Of a stretch of 64,000 nucleotides of DNA, positions 11,125-21,553 are shown piece by piece; position 1 is the stretch's first letter; each line of letters starts with the position of its first letter. Made by a program: the position numbers and the translations under genes. The notes beneath the pieces were generated by a model. It saw only the letters and a list, made by a program, of their open reading frames with translations. It ran no database searches and was not told the origin of the DNA. The stretch comes from Polystyrenella longa (GTDB lineage: Bacteria; Planctomycetota; Planctomycetia; Planctomycetales; Planctomycetaceae). Location: the NCBI RefSeq assembly GCF_007750395.1, contig NZ_CP036281.1, positions 2,131,001-2,195,000 of the forward strand, in the 5' to 3' direction.

Positions 11125-13938
11125 TCAATCGAGCGTTCGTTTTACTGTCTCGATTCGGTAAGATTCGAGCAGGTCTCCTTCTTTGACGTCATTAAAGCCG
11201 TCGAGACGAATACCACACTCCATTCCTTCACGTACTTCTTTGACGTCATCTTTTTCTCGCCGCAGGGACGAGATCGAATAGTTGTTGATGACAGTCTGGT
11301 CGCGAATGACATGGACTCGGTTGTTACGATCGATGGTGCCATTCAGAATTCGGCAACCGGCGATTTTTCCAACTTTACTGAAGCTGAATGCACGCAGCAC
11401 CAAGGCTCGTCCAGTAGCAACCTCTCGTGCCTCTGGTTCGAGTAGCCCTTCCAGAGAACGTTTGATGGTGTCAGTCAACTCGTAGATGATTCGGAAGCGG
11501 CGGATATCCACTCCTTCCTGCTCTGCGAGTACTTCCGCACGATCTTCCGCGATAACATGGAATGCCACGATGATCGCTCCCGATGCACTAGCGAGATAAA
11601 CATCGCTTTCGTTCACACCACCCACGGCTTCGTGAATGATTTGAACTCGTACTTCGGGGTGATCGAGTTTTTCGAGCTCGGATCGAATCGCTTCGATGGA
11701 ACCGGGAGCATCGGCTTTTACAATGATAGGCAAGTCGGAGACTGAGCCCGTGCGTGCTGCAGAAAGCAGGTCGTCCAGACTGAGCGATTTTCGACGACTG
11801 GACAGAACTTCTGCTCGGTCTGCATGTCGTCGATCGTTAGCGATCTGACGTGCTTCTTCGATCTCCGGCATGACAAAGAAGAATTCACCTGCACTTGGGA
11901 CTTCCTCCAGACCAGCCACCTTGATCGGAGTCGAAGGCGGAGCTTCCTGGATTTCTTCGTTCCGGTCATTGTACATAGCACGAACACGACCGTAAGTTTC
12001 TCCACAGAGAATAACATCGCCTACACGCATCGTTCCTCGTTGTACGATCAACCAGGACATCACCCCACGACCTTCATCGAGGAAGGCTTCGAGGCAGACA
12101 CCCACGGCATCGCGTTTCGGATCCGCTTTGTATTCATGTAGTTCGGCAGTAACCAGGATGGTTTCGAGAAGATTCTCAATCCCTTCACCCGTTGTGGCGG
12201 AAGTTCGAATGACTTCGATTTCACCGCCCCACTCTGCCGGCAGAATTTCATTCGCGGCGAGGTCCTGAAGAACTTTCTGTTCGTCAGCGTCGGGTAGATC
12301 GCACTTATTCATCGCCACGATGATAGGTGCACCACTCGATTTCGCGTGACTGATACATTCTTTAGTCTGCGGCATGACACCGTCATCCGCAGCCACGACC
12401 AGTACGATAATGTCGGTAATGTTTGCACCACGAGCACGCATTTCACCAAAGGCGGCGTGACCGGGAGTATCGACGAAGGTCACTTTTTGACCATTGTGGT
12501 CTACTTGGTAAGAGGCGATGTGCTGGGTGATTCCACCCGCTTCGCCGGACGTTACGTTAGCAGAACGGATTTTGTCGAGCAGCGATGTCTTACCATGGTC
12601 GACGTGACCGAGGATGGTGACGATCGGCGGACGATGTTCCAGGTTGGCCGGATCTTCGTCAGACTCGACAGACAGCGTCAGACGATCTTTGGCTGTTTCC
12701 TGGCGTTTGATTTCGAGCTCGACGCCCAGTTCCAGAGAAATCTCGAGAGCAGCCTCTTCGCTCAATCCGTCGTTAATGGTCACCATGTTGCCCTCGTTCC
12801 AGAGGATTCTCATGATGTCTTTTGACGGATGTCCGATCGCCTCTGAGAGGGTTCGTACTGTAATAGGCGGTTCAATAACCGCTTCCGTTTTACGAATAAT
12901 TTCTTTCTGAGACCGTTTGCGTGAACGACGATGGTACGGTCGGTAACGACGGTCGCCTTCAGTCTCGGTCGAAGGTCGACGTGATCCGCGACGCCGGTCG
13001 CGTTTCAGGCTCTGTTCTTCTTTGGCAGACTTACGGGCTTTCTCCGCTAGTCCCGCCTCTTCAGGCTTGAAGCCTTTGCGACCTCGTTGCTCGATTGATT
13101 TTTGCAGGTGCGAAGCGAGTGGGCTTTGTCCGGCGATCAAGTCGGGAGTCAGCTTGACGTCTGGTTTTTGCGCCACGCCTTCTGATTTTGCTTCGACTTT
13201 CTTTTTCGGAATTTCAAACTTGGGCTGAGCTGCGATATTCGGAAGAGCCGTTTTAGGCTTGTTCTTAGCCGCTCCACCTTTGCGGCCCCCCCCCATGTTA
13301 CCCCGTGGACGCATTTCCCGAAGGGTTCCCTGGTTTCCGGTTGCCACGTAATCATCACGGCTGATGGAGTCGATTTCAGGATCAGTGCTTTCGGACTGTG
13401 CTTCGGAGCTATCTCCGGTTTTCGTATCCGCAGATTCTGTTGTTTCGGCAGATTTGGCTGTTTCCGTTCCCGTCGTAGTTTCTGCTACATTGGTCTCGGC
13501 AGATTCGGCCACTTGCTGAGCAGAGTCGTCCTGACCGCTATCAGAAGAAGTGTCCTGATCGGTAAAGGATTCGTCCGTGGTTTGGGCTTCGCGAGTCTCA
13601 ACGGCGGTTGTAGTGTTTCCGTCGTCTCCTTGTTCGGCAACTTCTTCTTCGCTATTTTGCGAACGAAGTTGCGGACGAGCGGACATGGCGCGAATCTGGC
13701 GGATTTTGGCAGCCGGATCAGGCGCTTTTTCTCGAACCGGAGCGGGTGGCTCCGAGGTATCCTGGCCAGGAGCCTTGGTGTCTTTGTTGACGTGCGCGAC
13801 TATAACGTCTCGCTCTTCGGGCGATATGCTGGCGAGTGCGGAGTTCTTGACGACGACTCCCGCTTCACTTGCCAAATCAATCAGTTCTTTACTGTCCAGC
13901 CCCAGCTCTTTAGCCAAAGCGAAGATTCGAACTTTCAA
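11125..13938 (-). CDS. infB: Translation initiation factor IF-2
   Basis: A 937-residue GTPase that places initiator tRNA on the 30S subunit and promotes subunit joining. Residues 1-50 form the small N-terminal IF2N domain, then about 290 residues of low-complexity Glu/Thr/Ser- and later Arg-rich linker. A second IF2N-like region (about 355-410) precedes the G domain: G1 GHVDHGKT (444-451), G3 DTPGH (490-494), G4 NKCD (544-547). Domains II-IV and the initiator-tRNA-binding C-terminus are complete. The long disordered linker is usual for the long IF-2 form. It follows nusA after an unusually long, structured gap. Confidence 0.98.
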
Positions 13939-14324: not shown

Positions 14325-15860
14325 CTAAGTTTCCTCACTTTGAATATCGGATGTTTCCTCGATACCAGTGACTGTACCGTCATCGGCGACCTTCGGTGCT
14401 TCTTCCGCTTCCTGCTCCGATTCGACACTCGCAATAGCGGGGTTGGCGTCAGGAACGAGATCGTTCGAGGATTCAATTGCGGGAGCAACTGTCTCTTCTT
14501 GGACAGGCTCTCCCGACTCTATTTCATGCATAGCTTCTACTTCCGGTGCCGTTGGTGTGTCGCTTTCTGCTGTGGGCAGAATGGGTTCACTGGCGTCGGC
14601 TGTTTCGTCTTTAGTTTCTGGAGTAGCTTCAGTTTCCACGACCGTCTCTGCCGGTTGTGGTATTGGTTTACGGTACGCTGTCGACCCGCTATCCATTCGT
14701 GCCAGGCGTTCGCTCTCGTCGTCGGCAAACTGAATGATCTCGTCACATTGAGCTTCAGTCAATCCGCCCATTTCGGAGAGTTGATCGGGTTCGATTATGG
14801 AAAGATCGTCAAAGCTGAAGAAACCTTGAGCGACGAGATTCTCCGCCAGTTCTTCATTTATGTGTGTTGATTGAATAAAGCTGGTGACGGACTCGTCCAA
14901 TTGCTGGTCGAGCATGTCCTGCGTCATGACTTGAATGTCCCACCCCACCAGTTTAGAGGCCAAACGAACATTCTGTCCTTTTTTACCAATAGCGAGAGAA
15001 AGTTGATCATCGTGAACCAGCACGATTACTTTCCCCAGCATCGGACAAAGGATCACGTCCTGAACGTCAGCAGGCTGTAAGGCGTTGGGAACCAAGACCT
15101 GTAGAGAGTCATTCCAACGAACGATATCAATACGTTCGCCATGAAGTTCTTCTACGATGCTGCGGATACGCGCCCCTCGCATACCGACACAAGCTCCGAC
15201 TGCATCAACTTTAGAGTCGAAGCAGCTGACGGCTACTTTAGATCGGTATCCGGCTTCGCGGGCGAGCGATCGGACTTCAATTACGTTTTCAGTGATTTCT
15301 GGAATTTCGACTTCGAACAATCGACGAATCATTTCGCGGTGAGAGCGTGAAAGCACGATACGAACTCGGCTTCCCACTTTGCGAACTTCAAGAATGATCG
15401 CACGAACGCGTTCTCCGTTTCGATGTTCTTCTCCGGGGATTTGTTCACTACGGGGAAGAATCCCCTCGACTTTCCCCAAGTTTACATTGACGGAACGTCC
15501 ACCGTCGACTCGTGAGATCGTTCCAGTGACGAGCTGCCATTTCATTTCCATGTACTCGTCGTACAGGGCATCCCGCTCAGCTTCGCGGATTTTCTGAATC
15601 ATCACCTGTTTGGCTGTTTGTGCGGCAATTCGCCCCAGCAGGTCACCCATAACATCGGGCTCGAGTGCTTCATTGTCAATTGTCATCCCGGGATCGCCGG
15701 TGACGCGATCAATCGTAACGACCAGTTCCGATGCTTCTCCATAGTGCTTGCGCGCAGCGGAGAGGATTGCCTGTTCGATTCCCTCGAAGACAATGTTCGG
15801 ATCGATACCTTTGTCGCGATGAATTGCATCTACAATTCTCAGGATTTCCCTGCCGTTCAT
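14325..15860 (-). CDS. nusA: Transcription termination/antitermination factor NusA
   Basis: A 511-residue RNA polymerase-associated factor that modulates pausing, termination and antitermination. It begins [20 protein letters not shown] (N-terminal polymerase-binding domain), followed by an S1 domain at about 110-175 ([20 protein letters not shown]) and two KH domains, the second ending [21 protein letters not shown] helix-hairpin-helix-like region follows ([16 protein letters not shown]). The last 120 residues are an acidic Glu/Thr/Ala low-complexity tail. An AAAGGGG ribosome-binding site precedes ATG 15860. It is first in nusA-infB-rbfA; rimP, the usual upstream neighbour, is not here. Confidence 0.97.
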
Positions 15861-16261: not shown

Positions 16262-16558
16262 ATAAAAAAAGCGGGAATAATTCCCACTTTCACGAATAGG
16301 CGCCCCGTGGAGCCTATTCCTCAAAGCGCAATACGCTCTGAGTGAATGTCATCAGGTGTAGTTAAAAGCATTCACGCTAACATCGTAAATGCCTCACAGG
16401 ATACCTAACATGGCAGAAATTCCAACCTGGACGACGAGTGGTTAATCATTCAAAATGGTCCGCTCATTCTAACGGGAATGTTGGACCTGAACAGCGGGTG
16501 TTGACCCGTAGGGCAGATAGAACTTACCTGTATAGAATGATCCTGATGGACCCCTATG
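16262..16558 (-). ncRNA. Candidate structured small RNA (about 297 nt), family not recognised
   Basis: No open frame occupies this interval. Read on the minus strand it begins just after a -35/-10 pair and ends in an intrinsic terminator. Near its 3' end are three consecutive strong hairpins: GTGAATG 16375-16369 with CATTCAC 16348-16342; CTCA-AGCG with CGCT-TGAG (16342-16320); and GAATAGGC 16319-16312 with GCCTATTC 16301-16294. Near the 5' end CGGGT/ACCCG and GGTCC/GGACC stems form. Several segments have two mutually exclusive partners. It lacks recognisable hallmarks of tmRNA, RNase P RNA, SRP RNA or 6S RNA. Structure is seen in sequence; function is unknown. Confidence 0.65.
16264..16288 (-). 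terminator. Intrinsic terminator of the small RNA
   Basis: On the minus strand AGTGGGA (16288-16282) pairs with TCCCGCT (16276-16270), with one G-U pair and a five-base loop, followed directly by seven uridines (16270-16264). A compact, classical rho-independent terminator. Confidence 0.85.
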
Positions 16559-16564
16559 GGGCTG

Positions 16565-16593
16565 AGGGTATCGAGTTGAGATCAGACTGTCAA
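16565..16593 (-). promoter_or_regulatory. Promoter of the small RNA
   Basis: A perfect sigma-70-type -35 hexamer TTGACA (16593-16588) is followed after exactly 17 bases by TACCCT (16570-16565) as -10. Transcription would start near 16558. The -10 is only a fair match; the spacing and position relative to the folded RNA support it. Confidence 0.6.
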
Positions 16594-16876
16594 GAAAATG
16601 GGAGCGACTAAACAGAATTTAAGTCCTGCTGACCAAAATGTTTCTTTGATTTCGCGCCGGTTAAAACAGGTTGCGTATTCGACCGACAGAAACCTCATCG
16701 ATGGAGATTTAATAAAGTCGCACTGAACAGGCGTGTCGGCCGATCCAGAGGTTAGAATACACTTCATGCGCGAAGGGTTTTAAGTGCTAGCAAGAGTGTC
16801 GAGTGTGTTCGATAGTACCTGGGTTTATTGTACCTGTGTTCAGTTGTTCCGGGTTTGCCCAACCACGTTCTGGCCA
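16594..16876. other. Gap between the ketosynthase-like gene and the small-RNA promoter
   Basis: A 283-base stretch with no supported gene; the 61-codon minus-strand frame at 16582-16767 shows no family resemblance. No terminator for the ketosynthase-like gene was recognised here, so that transcript may run on into the small RNA and its terminator. Confidence 0.4.
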
Positions 16877-20290: not shown

Positions 20291-21553
20291 AGGGCAGTCG
20301 CATGAATTGGTCCCTGTTTTGCTTTGGTGGGGAATTGGTTCTCGTGACCGGGAGAGGCCCGGTACGAGCAGGGAATGAGGCCTTTTTTTCGCAGAGCGAT
20401 TGTCATGTTTACCATCCCGTTTTCCATTTTACAAGTTTTTGACGAACTCCCCGGCCCCAGGCAGGACGCTAAAGTCCTCTATGATCTCCCCGAGATGATC
20501 TTTATCGCCCTCTCCGGAGCGGTCGCCAATTGTGACTCCTGGACCGACATCGAACTCTACGCGCGAGAGCACCTCGACGACTTCCGTAAGTACGTGCCCT
20601 TGCCGAACGGCATTCCGTCGCACGACACCTTCAGCCGCGTCTTCTCCAGACTCGATCCCGTCCTCTTCGCCGAATGTCTGATCAAGTGGATCGATTCGTT
20701 GCAGTTAACGCTTAAAGTTCAGGGAGTGCATCTGGATGGAAAAGTGCTCCGCCGCAGCTTCGACGCGGCCGCCGGGAAAGGGGCTCTGAACGTGGTGACC
20801 GCCTGGGCCGGTGACCTGCACCTGTGCCTGGGACAGCTGCCTGTCGCCGCAGGTTCAAACGAACGCACCGCCGTCCCGAAACTGTTACAGATGCTGGAAT
20901 TGACAGGAGCGGTGGTTACGCTCGATACGATGCATACGCAGAAATCGACCGCCAGACAGATTCGTGGGAAGGAGGCCGACTATGTGTTGACGGTCAAACG
21001 GAATCAGAAGACCTTATATAACCTCATCCAGGGCCGGTTCGCCGATCTTACTAAAGATGATTTCCGTTCGTCGCGCGTACGTCGTTATACGTAGCGCGAA
21101 CAGCGAGGTGGCCGGGAAGAGTTACGCAGTTACACCGTCTTTCCGGCTCCGGCGGAGATCCGCCGGAGGGGATGGTGTGATGCGCGCACGATCGGGATGG
21201 TCTATCGCGAGCGGACCGTGAACGGGAAGATTTCGGAGGAGTTTGGTTTATTTCATCTCGAGCCTGCCGCCGAAAGTCCGTCAGCTGGCTCGTCATGTGC
21301 GGAATCACTGGCGGATTGAAAACCAGTTACACTGGAGCCTGGATGTCAGTTTTGCAGAAGAAACAAGCCGGATCCGTAAGGGGGACGGGGCGGCAAACGC
21401 GGCAATATTTCGGCGTCTGGCGTTGTCGCTGGTCAAGCGCGACCAGAGCGAAAAGAGAAGCCTCCGCGCGAAACGCCTCAAAGCCAGCTGGCGTTTCGAG
21501 AATCTGTTACCCGATCTCACGGGAATAACAGCATAAGTTCATGCGATTGCCCT
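20291..21553 (+). mobile_element. Decayed ISAs1-family insertion sequence
   Basis: Terminal inverted repeats are visible: AGGGCAGTCGCATGAA at 20291-20306, and its near-perfect complement at 21538-21553 (15 of 16 match). The 1263-bp span and the transposase type fit ISAs1. No target-site duplication was found by comparing the immediate flanks. The right end lies 18 bases from the terminator of tRNA-Ser. The transposase is broken twice, so the element is probably immobile unless helped in trans. Confidence 0.85.
20405..21535 (+). pseudogene. ISAs1-family DDE transposase, disrupted
   Basis: The frame starts at ATG 20405 (MFTIPFSILQVFDELPGPRQ). It carries the N-terminal DUF4372-like H-repeat region and then the DDE catalytic core: VHLDGKVLRRS (first Asp), VTLDTMHTQ (second Asp) and, after the lesions, HWRIENQLHW with the Glu. 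The frame is cut by TAG at 21092-21094, where family members continue straight on. About 145 bases later, near 21236-21250, the reading frame shifts by one: the family block FISSLPPKVRQLARHVRNHW appears in the next frame and runs to 21535. All catalytic residues are still encoded, so the decay is recent. Confidence 0.88.

Follow-up and report, generated by a model that had tools for sequence, protein, structure and literature searches.

A putative attenuator leader of the nusA-infB operon in Planctomycetaceae with a conserved minimal reading frame

Two core factors, NusA in transcription and IF2 in translation, share an operon, and how it is kept in balance is an old question. In the window (the whole stretch of 64,000 nucleotides of Polystyrenella longa DNA analysed here), the minus strand between a ketosynthase-like gene (KS) and nusA encodes an RNA bounded by a promoter and a terminator. 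What is this RNA, and what could its place ahead of nusA mean? An earlier note, made from the letters alone, described it as strongly structured, of unrecognised family and possibly a conformational switch or a pseudoknotted RNA. Comparison with related genomes points to a control leader of the nusA-infB operon as its most likely identity and shows that it contains a minimal reading frame.

The RNA and its fold

The promoter and the compact terminator proposed for the minus strand are both present (Table 1), and the promoter has counterparts in both congeners (TTGACA-17-TAATCT and TTGACA-17-TAACCT). A whole-genome search finds two close homologues, 79-85% identical, in these members of the same genus, and the gene order KS-RNA-nusA is the same in the window and in both. 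A block adjoining the promoter upstream, GCAGGACTTAAATT (16600-16640, minus strand), is kept in the three congeners (AGCAGGACTTAAATT / AGCGGGACTTAAATT) and is possibly an UP element or an activator site.

Table 1. Coordinates of the leader features and downstream genes in the window
Feature	Position	Strand	Basis
Sigma-70-type promoter TTGACA-17-TACCCT of the leader	16565..16593	-	sequence; kept in congeners
P0, 5' domain, long irregular hairpin; basal helix GATCATTCTA (16542-16533) with TAGAATGAGC (16471-16462)	16462..16542	-	MFE
P1, helix GTCGTCCAGGT (16435-16425) with ACCTGATGAC (16357-16348), encloses the mini-ORF hairpin	16348..16435	-	RNAalifold consensus, three congeners
P2, mini-ORF hairpin, 12-bp stem, loop AUGUUAG	16364..16395	-	MFE; RNAalifold consensus
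Shine-Dalgarno GAGG of the mini-ORF	16392..16395	-	sequence; identical in congeners
Mini-ORF AUG UUA GCG UGA (M-L-A-stop), 113 nt before the U-tract	16372..16383	-	identical in three congeners
P3 hairpin	16320..16342	-	two pairs changed on both sides in the three congeners
P4 hairpin	16294..16319	-	three pairs changed on both sides in the three congeners
Attenuator terminator GAAAGUGGGAAUUAUUCCCGCUUUUUUU (GUGGG..CCCGC plus U-tract)	16264..16291	-	sequence; family-wide pattern
nusA, first gene after the attenuator, spacer of 409 nt	14325..15860	-	ORF; orthologue 92% identity in congeners, same order
infB (IF2), downstream of nusA, same strand	11125..13938	-	listed ORF start; IF2 by its translation

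A search of Rfam with the RNA gave no match at the gathering score and just two chance-level matches at E<=10, so that no Rfam family can be assigned, as had been supposed. tmRNA, tRNA and other Rfam families were rejected for want of a match (Rfam, ARAGORN); in the whole window ARAGORN reports just two ordinary tRNAs, both outside the RNA locus. The 6S RNA (RF00013) was rejected as well: it has no match at the locus and in relatives it sits elsewhere than nusA (contig C112 vs C13 in G017; 3.15 Mb vs 4.10 Mb in G003). In the window's own genus (G000-G002) 6S RNA was undetected, though most relatives have it; it has maybe diverged or been lost. Elsewhere in the window (20375-21536, plus strand), ORFs that by eye resemble a transposase split by a frame change lie beside tRNA-Ser and tRNA-Val genes.

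The strong fold is borne out. The 299-nt RNA reaches -109.9 kcal/mol (z -5.5) and its last 139 nt reach -57.1 kcal/mol (z -6.7), with 0 of 200 dinucleotide shuffles as good in either case. The three back-to-back hairpins described ahead of the terminator are recovered as P2, P3 and P4. In P2 the Shine-Dalgarno (SD) sequence occupies the 5' arm, the start codon the loop and the stop codon the 3' arm. From about 16440 up to P2 the 3' half of the RNA is nearly invariant within the genus, whereas the 5' half diverges even there. Compensatory changes, which the note had proposed to look for, come from comparison of the three congeners: P3 and P4 vary and nevertheless pair, with five pairs changed on both sides against 0-1 in a slid-partner control. 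The basal helix of P0 shows one double and two single pair-keeping changes, a weak covariation, while P1 is invariant and carries no covariation signal either way. Between genera the segment from the mini-ORF to the terminator diverges, which confines the covariation to the three congeners.

The leader and its terminator across the family

The surroundings of nusA were examined in related planctomycetes, as the note had suggested. The position of nusA could be established in 134 of 139 relatives, and for 80 of them the upstream kilobase was taken. Usable leaders came from 50 genera of the window's family, with one genome per genus; the genera are related, so the counts given below are not independent. 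A counterpart is present upstream of nusA in almost every genome of the family (about 50 genera and 37 further leaders) and follows one layout, namely a TTGACA-17-TANNNT promoter, a leader of 180-450 nt and the terminator. The RNA is thus not an isolated one and is most likely the nusA-infB leader. In 46 of the 50 genera, compared with 0.15 in shuffles, a promoter of the form TTGACN-17-TANNNT precedes the U-tract by 180-480 nt. Outside the family, among 16 genomes from other families of the same class, an SD-led mini-ORF upstream of nusA occurs in 0/16 and the terminator in only two. The operon itself begins with nusA because rimP is missing: the RimP_N domain (PF02576) is absent from all 30 planctomycetes searched (G000-G018 and class relatives) and present in 10 of 14 control genomes.

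In the leaders of Planctomycetaceae the terminator follows the consensus GUGGG..CCC[G/A]C and then U6-7. The GGG..CCC stem is found in 97 of 103 leaders, where the next pair is U-G, U-A or C-G; A-U (42) and A.G (33) dominate at the inner pair, which is C-G in only 3. The motif score used to choose the U-tract gives preference to GTGGG..CCC; the uniformity of these terminators may be overstated for that reason, and the mini-ORF test is unaffected. When whole genomes were searched, the pattern appeared in 24 of 61 and at most once per genome; compared with the located nusA, every match in these 24 genomes lies directly upstream of that gene and none elsewhere.

The distance to nusA is informative. 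In 15 of the 50 genera the U-tract begins only 17-45 nt ahead of the nusA start codon, and nothing resembling a promoter follows the terminator. Since this gap is both short and promoter-free, nusA would be reached there only by read-through of the leader terminator, and by its anatomy the RNA would be an attenuated leader. In the window's genus the distance is 342-410 nt. Given the gene order and position, the same reading is likely for the window despite its longer gap, although a spacer of this length may also accommodate an extra promoter for nusA.

A minimal reading frame before the terminator

Alignment of the leaders on the U-tract brings out a start codon joined directly to a stop codon (AUGUAA, AUGUGA or AUGUAG), preceded at normal distance by GAGG, AAGG or GGAG. 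The motif lies 105-160 nt, typically about 130 nt, before the U-tract. Of the 50 genera, 35 have an AUG-stop between -165 and -100, where shuffled sequences give 1.6 and at most 6 in 500 runs. None of the 50 has one when the search interval is moved 120, 240 or 360 nt upstream. If ORFs of up to five codons with an SD are admitted, the count rises to 40/50, against 1.5 in shuffles.

The reading frame itself provides a further test, in which AUGs were picked by SD match and place and not by stop. An in-frame stop follows within five codons for all 42 such AUGs, compared with 8/42 in each of the other two frames. In a validation set of 37 separate leaders from named genomes (Gimesia, Schlesneria, Fuerstiella, Thalassoglobus, Planctomicrobium and others), 31 of 32 SD-matched AUGs behave in the same manner. 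Nine of the 50 genera have no SD-matched AUG at this place; some of these have an AUG-stop with no SD match.

In leaders without the AUG-stop the frame is still closed by a stop, with 1-4 additional codons, varied in sequence, in between (AUGUUUUAA, AUGAUAUAG, AUGAAUUAA, AUGUUAGCGUGA, AUGUCGGCGUAG). A short in-frame ORF replaces the lost AUG-stop, as MDKM-, MDKI- or MGKI-stop in one clade and as M-L-A-stop in the window's genus. In the window the mini-ORF with its SD reads GAGG-N8-AUGUUAGCGUGA (16395-16372). The earlier statement that about 297 nt lack an open frame is correct for long ORFs and overlooks this SD-led frame of three codons. The mini-ORF AUGs are predicted to be exposed, with an unpaired probability of 0.57 compared with 0.32 for the leader (p=2e-8), a difference to which A/U-rich codons may contribute; for the AUG of the window the predicted value is 0.98.

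Taken together, an SD, an AUG and a stop within a few codons are conserved beyond chance, as expected of a minimal start-stop upstream ORF. Because the short frame is kept in frame across leaders, its translation is strongly indicated by the comparison.

Three details of these short frames can be added. In the clade with the four-codon form (L113, L118, L122, L124-L126, L128, L131, L143, L150, L154, L157; G048, G054, G118, G119), M-(D/G)-K-(M/I)-stop follows GGAACCTGAA or a close variant and lysine is constant at codon 3, for which reason the peptide itself may matter in this clade. In all three congeners of the window's genus, ATGTTAG occurs twice, 28 nt apart (16411-16377, minus strand), and the first copy opens a five-codon ORF (MLGIL-stop) with no SD core match. 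A second SD-AUG-stop elsewhere in the own genome (2271575) overlaps an ORF on the opposite strand, looks like chance and was discarded.

Competing readings and known systems

We favour a NusA-type feedback attenuator of nusA-infB that carries a ribosome-loading start-stop mini-ORF, and assign this reading a probability of about 0.7. The same terminator would also suit a pure NusA-feedback attenuator, the planctomycete counterpart of the rimP leader, in which the AUG-stop is an untranslated loop motif (AUGUNA) bound by the KH domains of NusA or by another protein. The motif is indeed often placed in an exposed loop, and the terminator stem shows sequence conservation like that of the rimP leader, where a protein has been suggested as the signal (PMC2965389). 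A protein-binding loop is nonetheless an improbable explanation, given that the SD stands at normal spacing before the AUG and that leaders devoid of the motif preserve the frame through one to four varied codons, with all 42 frames closed against 8/42 in the control frames. A free-standing sRNA, trans-acting or of dual function, that ends in a true terminator and lies upstream of nusA by chance of place would account for the strong promoter, the compact structured 3' end, the efficient-looking terminator and the long terminator-to-nusA distance in the own genus. It is hard to reconcile with a terminator that is tied to nusA family-wide and unique per genome, with a nusA gap too short for a separate promoter in 15/50 genera and with a 5' half that is poorly conserved even within the genus; we therefore consider it unlikely.

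The switch proposed in the earlier note, a riboswitch or pseudoknot driven by a ligand or by alternative helices, was attractive in view of the strong fold and the nearly invariant sequence block within the genus. Most of the competing pairings on which it was built are not conserved in the two congeners. CATTCAC, the alternative partner of GTGAATG, is CAGTCAC in one and CATGCCC in the other, and the pairing of the GGGGC loop with GCCCC at the 5' end is not kept either. AGAATGA does pair with TCATTCT, as part of the ordinary long helix of P0 and not as an alternative state, while GGACC/GGTCC is lost. Across 49 genera, antiterminator or SD-sequestering pairings gave mean z values of 0.2, -0.3 and 0.0, nothing above chance, and in the leader comparison no family-wide aptamer-like core was seen apart from the SD-AUG-stop and the terminator. 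Such a switch is thus highly improbable. The earlier interpretation is partly supported overall: a structured, bounded RNA outside Rfam was rightly recognised, the proposed switch or pseudoknot is not supported and the mini-ORF was missed.

How might the favoured attenuator with its ribosome-loading mini-ORF work? Comparison supplies the promoter, the terminator, the SD, the minimal ORF and their order and spacing; we infer that attenuation takes place in the window's species, that NusA stimulates termination, that the mini-ORF is translated and that it affects read-through. Transcription would begin at the strong leader promoter and most transcripts would stop at the GUGGG..CCC[G/A]C-U7 terminator, the nusA-infB mRNA arising by read-through. 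Termination efficiency is probably set by NusA itself, by analogy with Bacillus subtilis. The SD and the minimal ORF, usually AUG-stop and M-L-A-stop in the window, would recruit a ribosome about 130 nt before the U-tract. As such an ORF involves initiation and termination with almost no elongation, its occupancy would track IF2, fMet-tRNA and free subunits, not amino acid supply, and a parked ribosome would serve as a readout of initiation capacity. The parked ribosome may bias either the folding of the intervening hairpins or RNA polymerase-ribosome coupling, the two candidate links to the terminator, and thereby match read-through to the demand for IF2 and NusA; the effect could have either direction. 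In the RNA this link is not visible, since neither an antiterminator nor an SD-masking helix exceeds chance in the 49 genera.

The presence of a start-stop ORF in about 50 genera suggests that the act of starting translation is used as a control signal. That it defines a new class of ribosome-sensing attenuator, in which translation initiation (IF2, initiator tRNA and subunit supply) is the signal and is coupled to a NusA-controlled terminator before an operon for NusA and IF2, is a tentative proposal which we hold to be possible and somewhat doubtful. Initiation sensing thereby becomes directly testable through single-codon changes. To our knowledge, this is the first bacterial case of a minimal start-stop ORF clearly under selection as a regulatory part; the open-access literature searched contained no start-stop ORF conserved within a bacterial attenuator, which is not proof of novelty. 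The nusA-operon attenuator is also extended to a phylum without rimP and without a recorded leader in that literature.

Among known systems, the closest in anatomy is the rimP leader (RF01770). Naville and Gautheret (2010) found a GGG..CCC terminator before rimP-nusA-infB to be the commonest attenuator of their survey, mostly in Firmicutes and Gammaproteobacteria, and do not mention planctomycetes (PMC2965389). Both leaders attenuate, or would attenuate, the nusA-infB operon by a sequence-conserved GGG..CCC stem and U-tract shortly before the first gene, and neither has a visible antiterminator. The planctomycete leader cannot be filed in this Rfam family because the model is unmatched (0/40 genomes over the cut-off and none in the own genome), the inner C-G pair is rare and the rimP gene is absent. 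It further differs in its SD and minimal ORF: the metY-rimP leader of E. coli K-12 has CTGGGCTTTAGGCCCTTTTTTT at the corresponding place, after metY, and no AUG before the terminator.

In the nusA-operon leader of B. subtilis, NusA stimulates termination at an intrinsic terminator and so limits its own expression, according to the part of that report used here (PMC12288461), which reports no start-stop ORF. An intrinsic terminator in the nusA-operon leader is common to both systems, whereas NusA dependence of the planctomycete leader is an analogy. With the leader-peptide attenuators (trp, his, tnaC) the planctomycete leader shares a short ORF that is preceded by an SD and followed downstream by an intrinsic terminator. 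A classical attenuator of this type was rejected: the planctomycete ORF has 1-5 codons, with neither regulatory codons nor a nascent peptide, and no alternative antiterminator helix was detected.

Start-stop sites are known from eukaryotic leaders and from scattered bacterial Ribo-seq sites, and known AUG-stop upstream ORFs stall or park ribosomes (PMC5972666, PMC11955535). Like those of Arabidopsis NIP5;1 and the Ribo-seq sites of E. coli and Campylobacter, the usual planctomycete form consists of a start and a stop codon only, which allows initiation and termination without elongation. The known examples are eukaryotic or single, scattered bacterial sites, whereas the planctomycete ORF holds a fixed position within one putative attenuator in about 50 genera.
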